This document shows positions 55,451 through 57,260 of a stretch of 64,000 nucleotides of DNA, piece after piece. The position numbers were made by a program, and so were the translations under genes. The notes under the pieces are model-generated. The model did not search any database, had not been told where the DNA came from, and was given only the letters and a program-made list of their open reading frames with translations. Location of the stretch: assembly GCA_944390005.1 (NCBI GenBank), contig CALXOJ010000003.1:1-64000 (forward strand). Reading direction: 5' to 3'. Source of the stretch: an uncultured Spirochaetota bacterium (GTDB lineage Bacteria; Spirochaetota; Spirochaetia; JAFGXN01). The stretch's first letter is position 1; the number at the start of each line of letters is the position of its first letter.

Positions 55451-56305
55451 ATGAAAAACTACAGCGAACTGACCCTAACCGACGACTACCTGTTCAGCCA
55501 AGTAATGAAAGACGAAAGCGTGTGCAAGCCGTTTCTGGAAATGCTTCTGGAAATCAAAATAGCCAAAATTGAGTATTTGCAGGAACAGAAAGAGTTGAAC
55601 CTCTTCCCCGACTCCAAAGGCGTAAGGCTGGACGTCTACCTTGAAGGAGACGGAAAGGTGTACAACATCGAAATGCAGGCAGGACGCGATCAATACCTCA
55701 TCTGCCGAATGCGCTACTACCGGGCGGCGATCGACATCGACATGATGATGAGAGGCAGCGGGTACCGGGAACTGAAACCCGTGTATATCATATTTCTCTG
55801 CCGATTTGACCCGATAGGGAAGGGATTGGCGAGGTACACGCTGAGGAAATACTGTGAGGAGACGGGAGAAAAAATCGATGACGGACAGACGGAAATCGTG
55901 TATAATGTGAATGCGTATGAGAGAGCGGGGCGCGGGAAGGTACGGGAGCTTCTGAGGTATTTAGCGACCGGAGAGGCGCAGGAACCGGAGGTGAAGGAGT
56001 TTGCTAAGAAGATAGCCCGCTTTAAAGAGACGCAGCAGTGGAGAAAAGGAAACATGAAATACGAATTAGATTTACAAGACGCCCGTATCGAAGGAAAGGA
56101 AGAGGGAATAGCGGAAGGTATTGAAATCGGACGAAGCGAAGGGCTGGAAGAAGGACTGGAGAAAGGACATTCCGAAGGACGCTATGAGACACTGCTGTTG
56201 ATTATTGAGAATGGAGTGAAGCAAGGATTAACGCCCGAACAGACGGCGGCGCTGACGGGGTTAACGGTTGACGAGGTGGAAGCACTGCGGAAGCGGATTC
56301 GGTAA
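55451..56305 (+). CDS. Rpn/PD-(D/E)XK-family nuclease (recombination-promoting nuclease type)
   Basis: The 284-residue product has the family N-terminus LTLTDDYLFSQVMKDESVC and the nuclease core with D61 in VRLDVYL and E74/Q76 in YNIEMQ, followed by RMRYYRAAIDI. The C-terminal tail has the typical G-every-four-residues coil (EGKEEGIAEGIEIGRSEG). A short helical end follows, GLTPEQTAALTGLTVDEVEA. Such proteins are often labelled PD-(D/E)XK transposases, but E. coli relatives are DNases linked to recombination and phage defence. GGAGGTG precedes the ATG. The active-site residues are intact, so it should be functional. Its 3' third is duplicated downstream. Confidence 0.88.
   Translation: MKNYSELTLTDDYLFSQVMKDESVCKPFLEMLLEIKIAKIEYLQEQKELNLFPDSKGVRLDVYLEGDGKVYNIEMQAGRDQYLICRMRYYRAAIDIDMMMRGSGYRELKPVYIIFLCRFDPIGKGLARYTLRKYCEETGEKIDDGQTEIVYNVNAYERAGRGKVRELLRYLATGEAQEPEVKEFAKKIARFKETQQWRKGNMKYELDLQDARIEGKEEGIAEGIEIGRSEGLEEGLEKGHSEGRYETLLLIIENGVKQGLTPEQTAALTGLTVDEVEALRKRIR
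56054..56305 (+). CDS. Candidate intragenic small protein (RpnS-like) inside the Rpn gene
   Basis: An in-frame ATG at codon 202 is preceded by AGAAAAGGAAAC, a plausible Shine-Dalgarno. It would give an 83-residue protein, MKYELDLQDARIEGKEEG..., identical to the Rpn C-terminus. From memory, work on E. coli Rpn proteins reports such internally started small forms that block the full-length nuclease. Support here is the ribosome site plus the existence of a separate copy that begins at exactly the same ATG. Expression is unproven. Confidence 0.5.
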   Translation: MKYELDLQDARIEGKEEGIAEGIEIGRSEGLEEGLEKGHSEGRYETLLLIIENGVKQGLTPEQTAALTGLTVDEVEALRKRIR

Positions 56306-56370
56306 AAACGATTGATTTTCAAATAAATCCGCTCTCGAAGCTTAAACCCGCCTTTACCCGCACCCGATTT

Positions 56371-56420
56371 TCCGAAGGCGTTTTGCTGCCCTAAACGGGA
56401 ACGAAAGTTGCCTTAAGAGA
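56371..56420 (+). repeat. 50-base direct repeat, copy 1
   Basis: TCCGAAGGCGTTT, then CCCTAAACGGGAACGAAAG and TTGCCTTAA, recur at 56755-56804 with about five differences near one end. This copy directly precedes the second RpnS-like segment. The 138 bases from the Rpn stop to 56443 hold nothing else. Confidence 0.75.
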
Positions 56421-56443
56421 CGCAGCAGTGGAGAAAAGGAAAC

Positions 56444-56683
56444 ATGAAATACGAGTTAGATTTACAGGACGCCCGCATTGAAGGAAAGGAAGAGGGAATA
56501 GCGGAAGGCATTGAAATCGGACGAAGCGAAGGACTGGAGAAAGGACATTCCGAAGGGCGCTATGAGACACTGCTGCTGATTATTGAGAATGGAGTGAAGC
56601 AAGGATTAACGCCCGAGCAGACGGCGGCGCTGACGGGGTTAACGGTTGACGAGGTGGAAGCGCTGCGGAAGCGGATTCGGTAA
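56444..56683 (+). CDS. Free-standing duplicate of the Rpn C-terminal segment (RpnS-like, 79 aa)
   Basis: This ORF repeats codons 202-284 of the Rpn gene from the same ATG, with the same AGAAAAGGAAAC upstream. Relative to the parent it lacks 12 bases (one LEEG-type unit). It also has nine substitutions, all synonymous: eight at third positions and one TTG-to-CTG. An in-frame TAA lies ten codons before the ATG, so it is not read as part of a longer protein. Protein-level conservation argues that this frame has been translated. A stand-alone inhibitor of the neighbouring nuclease is the attractive reading. A decaying recombination remnant is the alternative. Confidence 0.6.
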   Translation: MKYELDLQDARIEGKEEGIAEGIEIGRSEGLEKGHSEGRYETLLLIIENGVKQGLTPEQTAALTGLTVDEVEALRKRIR

Positions 56684-56754
56684 AATACGAAGCGGCAAAG
56701 GCGCCGCCGCTTCGACAACAGGGGCTTGCGTTTAAGGGGTGAAGGCTGCCGGAC

Positions 56755-56804
56755 TCCGAAGGCGTTTCGTTACCCTAAACGGGAACGAAAGTTGCCTTAA
56801 AAGA
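56755..56804 (+). repeat. 50-base direct repeat, copy 2
   Basis: This is the second copy of the element at 56371. Spacing between copies is 384 bases, close to the 390-base offset between the two RpnS-like segments. A tandem duplication of one composite unit is therefore likely. Confidence 0.75.
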
Positions 56805-57260
56805 CACAAAACACTGCGTTAAAGGCGACAGCTTTGCAAATAAACCCATAGTTATCGAAGCCTAAAATCCCGCGTTAAAAGCACCCGATTCACCAAAAAC
56901 ATCAAACATTGCAAAGTCAAAAAATTTCCTTTAAAAACGACAGATTCTCAAACGCAATCCACCGCTCTCGAAGCTCAAAATATTGCGTTAAAAACCCCCG
57001 ATTCGCCAAAAACATTAAACATTGCGAAGTCAAAAAATTCCCTTTAAAGGCGGCAGATTCTCAAACGCAACCCGCCGCAGTCGAAGCTCAAAATACTGCG
57101 TTAAAATCCACTGATTCGCCAAAGAAACTCACAGCTATCGAAGTTTAAACCCCGCGTTAAAAACGGCAGATTCTCAAACGCAATCCGCCGCAGTCGAAGC
57201 TCAAAATATTGCGTTAAAATCCACTGATTCGCCAAAGAAATCCACCGCAGTCGAAGGCGC
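56799..57260 (+). repeat. Tandem array of ~56.5-base units with a 113-base higher-order period
   Basis: The word TCGAAG or a one-base variant starts units near 56799, 56855, 56911, 56968, 57024, 57081, 57138, 57194 and 57251, alternating 56 and 57 bases. CAGATTCTCAAACGCAA recurs at 56941, 57054 and 57167, exactly 113 apart. GATTCxCCAAA recurs at 56887, 57000, 57113 and 57226, also 113 apart. Each half-unit contains GCGTTAAA. The period is not a multiple of three, so the array is not coding. This is the main content of the 712 bases between the duplicate ORF and ispG. Confidence 0.9.

Follow-up and report, generated by a model that had tools for sequence, protein, structure and literature searches.

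The rpn genes of E. coli and C. difficile produce a short protein, RpnS, from internal starts of the kind considered below, as determined experimentally (PMC10327210), and RpnS can be expressed both from inside an rpn gene and from a gene of its own (PMC10327210). In E. coli, binding and inhibition of the full-length nuclease RpnL by RpnS have been demonstrated. The specificity of this pairing is set by 4-aa repeats in the dimer helix; one added repeat left RpnCS unable to counter RpnCLS, i.e. neutralisation was abolished. Downstream of rpnE in E. coli, ypaA codes for a second RpnES, the protein of which has been detected (Zhong et al. 2023, PMC10327210). Some strains likewise harbor a second rpnCS downstream of rpnC, and the two second-copy cases arose independently (PMC10327210). 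By inspecting the K-12 sequence, we found that ypaA opens with the AAAGGAGAGATTAATG block, identical to that at the internal start of rpnE, and that it has one additional 4-aa unit relative to the rpnE segment.

We analyzed a window of 64,000 nucleotides from an uncultured Spirochaetota bacterium (contig CALXOJ010000003.1). In this, an rpn gene is followed on the same strand, after a gap of 138 nt between the rpn stop and the next start, by a free ORF that consists of only the internally started segment, as ypaA does downstream of rpnE (Table 1). Judged by its sequence, the locus is an arrangement of the ypaA type, real but largely ordinary and already known as a kind. The original prediction, which had the coordinates of the Rpn ORF, the internal ATG and the free ORF all correct, had taken the arrangement to be undescribed; the reported rpnE-ypaA pair and the second rpnCS after rpnC (PMC10327210), together with the K-12 layout, contradict this.

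When the parent segment was compared with its own genome, the duplication was found to be far beyond chance (blast E = 2.4e-119). The repeat had been described as running from the internal ATG to the stop. It is real, but the homology is longer at both ends, beginning 29 nt 5' of the ATG and ending 2 nt past the stop in both copies. The ribosome site GGAGAAAAGGAAAC was consequently duplicated as well. On its 5' side, the frame of the free ORF is bounded by an in-frame stop (TAA, 56414-56416), so that the ORF is no fragment of a larger one. Codon alignment reproduced the predicted nine synonymous differences between parent and free copy, with zero nonsynonymous ones, plus one 12-nt in-frame deletion.

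Table 1. Features of the rpn locus in window coordinates.
Feature	Position	Strand	Basis
Full-length Rpn nuclease (RpnL), 284 aa	55451-56305	+	TIGR01784 and PDDEXK_2 matches, active-site residues
Duplication, parent segment	56025-56307	+	93% identity to 56415-56685
Ribosome-binding stretch of the internal start (GGAGAAAAGGAAAC)	56040-56053	+	Sequence; SD kept in relatives
C-terminal segment from the internal start, putative RpnS, 83 aa	56054-56305	+	Conserved Met with SD; precedent in PMC10327210
Parent stretch containing the 12 nt (one 4-aa unit) missing from the free copy	56137-56153	+	Alignment; exact position ambiguous
54-nt downstream element, copy 1	56371-56424	.	91% identity to 56755-56808; ends at the left junction of the duplicated segment
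Duplicated segment: ribosome site, ORF and stop	56415-56685	+	Own-genome comparison
Free-standing RpnS-like ORF, 79 aa, 4 residues (one unit) shorter than the parent segment	56444-56683	+	
Stretch 3' of the free ORF, unique in the genome	56686-56754	.	Genome search
54-nt downstream element, copy 2	56755-56808	.	Repeat comparison

Residues 10-278 of the 284-aa ORF fit the model TIGR01784 (Rpn family recombination-promoting nuclease) with an E-value of 2.1e-33 and 116 bits against a cut-off of 52, which makes the ORF a full-length member of the Rpn family (TIGR01784 / COG5464); its PDDEXK_2 match has an E-value of 8e-12. Residues D61 and E74-x-Q76 are invariant across eight aligned homologues, and we take them to be the expected PD-(D/E)XK active site, a catalytic assignment that comes from family knowledge. 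Together, the matches and residues support the identification of the ORF as an Rpn-family nuclease, with predicted PD-(D/E)XK DNase activity. Gene content, together with the named homologues, of which L033 and L036 are Treponema MAGs, suggests a treponeme-like organism. The searches at genus, family and order level drew on two relatives only. A PDB sequence search gave no relevant match, the predicted structures, of modest confidence, had no significant PDB match, and scans with PADLOC and Rfam returned nothing significant. Among plasmids, only distant Rpn relatives were found (24-34% identity).

Regarding the internal start, the column of Met202 contains Met in 23 of 39 aligned sequences, taken from homologues in the class and elsewhere. 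A Shine-Dalgarno (SD) match of at least 4 nt at suitable spacing precedes the aligned Met in 29 out of 33 sequences, as compared to 37 out of 248 other internal ATGs (Fisher p 4e-17, uncorrected for kinship), where the 33 are those with a Met at the column or at most 4 residues away and the best Met within that distance was taken, a choice that favours the test site over other ATGs. The matches are mostly GGAGG or AGGAG, and the signal stems partly from a WR..M protein motif (TGG AGG), for which reason it is not independent of coding. This pattern of a conserved Met with an SD fits an internal translation start. The ATG at 56054 has the ribosome site of its own that had been claimed for it, and the proposed parallel to the E. 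coli nuclease with a small internal form agrees with the RpnL/RpnS gene-within-gene. The SD of the free ORF (GGAG at 10 nt, with AAGGA nearby) is weaker than in most relatives. A promoter-like sequence, ATGACG-17-TATAAT, is also found inside rpn at 55878-55906, about 150 nt 5' of the internal start; as one such match was found where 0.8 were expected by chance, this candidate internal promoter is merely a lead. Internal transcription starts do occur in E. coli rpn genes.

The genome contains at least five near-identical rpn copies, i.e. the parent and at least four more. Three complete copies are situated on contig C3 (C3:55451, C3:208997 and C3:213972), two further ones are cut by the ends of contigs C11 and C12, and a divergent rpn is found on C2. 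The three complete copies are identical up to nt 569 of the gene and differ in the C-terminal part, a pattern that points to recent spread or gene conversion. The free copy departs from its parent at nine sites, and for each of them one or more of the other paralogues have the base of the free copy; at three of these it is the parent's base that is private, while the free copy has no private bases. The chance of nine synonymous changes out of nine in unconstrained DNA is 2e-6 when any change is allowed and 1e-4 for transitions only, and these low values, seen against the paralogues, are a sign of selection on the rpn family and not on the free ORF. The original prediction had read the synonymous pattern as likely selection on the encoded peptide. 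This was rejected, since every variant base occurs in some paralogue and a copy lacking private substitutions does not demonstrate selection on itself. Instead, the nine changes probably originated in full-length genes and were then delivered by recombination. Within a recombining gene family, purely synonymous differences thus do not prove that the copy is under selection.

As to the origin of the free copy, its left junction fuses the end of a 54-nt element (...GTTGCCTTAA), which is present after other rpn copies also, to GAGACGCAGCAG inside rpn, and the junction partners are alike at approximately 8 out of 10 bases (AAaAGACaCA vs AAgAGACgCA). The free ORF is followed by 69 nt unique in the genome and then by the second copy of the element. 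Because these 69 nt are unlike the sequence downstream of the parent, a simple head-to-tail duplication of about 385 bp is insufficient, and the junctions fit better with a short-homology exchange involving paralogue material than with one clean tandem duplication.

Two further structures were observed in this region. A perfect hairpin (CGAAGCGGC...GCCGCTTCG) directly 3' of the free ORF, at 56688-56714 of the window, has a single occurrence in the genome and is terminator-like by score on the minus strand. Between rpn and the next gene, a non-coding array at 56807-57256 displays 56/57-nt units with a 113-nt period and the motifs TTAAAN..GATTC..CAAACGC, and similar sequence is located 3' of other rpn copies.

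The 12 nt deleted from the free copy amount to one 4-residue repeat unit. Six C-terminal segments in the genome, of 92, 88, 84, 68, 100 and 88 aa, differ by multiples of 4, i.e. they show the 4-aa-repeat length variation expected of the RpnL/RpnS C-terminal region. The free copy is one unit shorter than its parent and, given the effect of a one-unit mismatch in E. coli, neutralisation of its neighbour cannot be assumed. The free copy is probably translatable, but by analogy with E. coli it may fail to neutralise the neighbouring Rpn, from whose specificity its own may differ. Altered specificity is by the same analogy at least as likely as an extra antitoxin dose, and the changed toxin:antitoxin ratio of the original prediction is not supported.

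It had further been proposed to look among relatives for rpn genes followed by a copy of their own 3' end. Such cases occur in related complete genomes: in genomes of one or two contigs from another family of the class, an intact C-terminal-only ORF lies 2-168 nt past the end of at least eight rpn genes, a tally that is a lower bound, as selected places were read among the matches listed. Between the rpn stop and the ATG lie 2 nt in L087, L092 and L083, 18 nt in L090, L091 and L084 (the L083 and L084 spacings being derived from coordinates), 34 nt in L088 and 168 nt in L089. Two C-terminal-only ORFs come consecutively after rpn at L087:744-2107 (+), and three C-terminal-only Rpn ORFs stand in a row at L082:7103-8019 (-); a run is likewise found at L084:7036-9327 (+). 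The members of these runs differ by 4-aa units and in their swapped last helices. In L093 the C-terminal-only frame is truncated to 52 codons. Apart from two residues, the first free cassette of L087 equals the domain of its neighbour plus one repeat unit. L088, L090 and L091 retain the head but have their last helices exchanged, and L091 has an altered repeat number as well. Like the window ORF, the C-terminal-only ORFs of these genomes (G025, G046, G155 and G197) come after a full rpn and contain the internally started segment only. Unlike it, they mostly follow after a gap of 2-34 nt, stand up to two or three consecutively, have swapped last helices and various repeat numbers, and belong to a different Rpn subfamily. 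Recurrence in relatives argues against the window locus being a unique accident. The runs, possibly spare antitoxin cassettes, are a more novel lead than the window locus itself.

Two further cases were encountered. The sister species G001 has a free RpnS-like ORF of 119 codons with the aligned internal start and GGAGG (L031:1456-1815, -), far from any rpn and adjoining biotin-synthesis-like genes. In a Synergistaceae MAG (L037:2887-3970, +), an Rpn gene is directly followed by a diverged 56-aa C-terminal-only ORF that begins at the aligned internal Met.

The explanation that we consider probable is an RpnL/RpnS gene-within-gene to which a further RpnS-like copy, encoded separately, has been added, as in E. 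coli rpnE-ypaA. The full protein would be a PD-(D/E)XK DNase, and its C-terminal end, also started at 56054, would dimerise via the repeat-bearing helix and restrain the nuclease. The free ORF would have been born by short-homology recombination between the rpn 3' end and the downstream element, with a paralogue as its source or as a later gene-conversion donor, and would with its own ribosome site give rise to a 79-aa RpnS-like protein. As this protein lacks one 4-residue unit, it would most likely serve to bind Rpn variants with a matching helix, and not simply as an extra dose for its neighbour. The anatomy, the family membership, the conserved internal start, the paralogue origin of the variants and the recurrence elsewhere are shown by the sequences, whereas translation, binding, antitoxin activity, specificity and phage defence at the window locus are inferred. 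In favour of the explanation are the family match, the conserved internal start, the copied ribosome site and the intact frame, to which the E. coli layout with its detected protein, the at least eight related pairs and the 4-aa length multiples can be added. Counting against it are the lack of private substitutions, the one-unit mismatch, the weaker SD and the gap of 138 nt as compared to 2-34 nt in most related pairs.

The same lack of private substitutions would be expected of young recombination debris, i.e. a functionless partial copy of the rpn 3' end, derived from unequal exchange between near-identical paralogues and open merely through recency. The recombining family with its identical first 569 nt, the illegitimate-looking junction with its unique flank and the truncated frame in L093 agree with such an origin, but related complete genomes have at least eight such pairs with intact frames and tight spacing, and expression of the E. 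coli counterpart is on record (PMC10327210); we regard debris as unlikely. The identical N-terminal halves and mosaic C-terminal ends of the paralogues, and the related arrays in which heads are kept and last helices swapped, could also point to a silent donor cassette, where the free copy feeds gene conversion that varies the C-terminal ends of rpn, whether translated or not. With a single free copy in a genome where full-length paralogues are equally able donors, and with a ribosome site retained that a silent cassette does not need, this is improbable. More improbable still is an assembly chimera, in which rpn repeats had been collapsed and wrongly joined so that the free copy is an artefact: the assembly is a draft in 19 contigs, and both C11 and C12 begin inside rpn copies, but the free copy matches no other copy in the assembly exactly, its 3' flank is unique and the layout is also found in single-contig genomes.

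A wider reading, which we put forward tentatively and with more doubt than belief, is that the treponeme rpn 3' end is a cassette, such that new C-terminal domains are recombined with a constant nuclease half and old ones, displaced or duplicated, remain downstream as free antitoxins. If so, the free antitoxins would guard against Rpn toxin variants that persist in the genome or population, much resembling the orphan immunity genes of polymorphic toxins, and the window locus would be a fresh one-cassette case with a one-repeat specificity shift. The runs in complete genomes pose a testable question, namely whether their ORFs are spare antitoxins that match other Rpn toxins in repeat number and last helix.

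Lastly, with this locus the arrangement of a separately encoded RpnS, known from E. coli, is now seen in treponeme-like bacteria too. The locus shares with RpnL/RpnS systems generally (E. coli RpnA-E and RpnP2; C. difficile) a predicted PD-(D/E)XK nuclease, a putative internal start with an SD and C-terminal segments that vary by 4-aa units, and has an extra free RpnS-like copy beyond that general layout. While toxicity, DNA cleavage, inhibition and phage defence have been shown for RpnL/RpnS elsewhere, the window locus is known from sequence alone. The rpnE-ypaA and rpnC cases come closest, with a full rpn that has a separate copy of its own internally started C-terminal end behind it, a ribosome site retained in the second copy and, for ypaA and the rpnE segment, a difference of one 4-aa unit. 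In contrast to the window, ypaA begins just a few nt past the stop of rpnE and its sequence has diverged, whereas the residues of the free copy are identical to those of its parent; furthermore, in RefSeq RpnE is marked inactive and ypaA is annotated as a pseudogene, whereas the window Rpn keeps its active-site residues.
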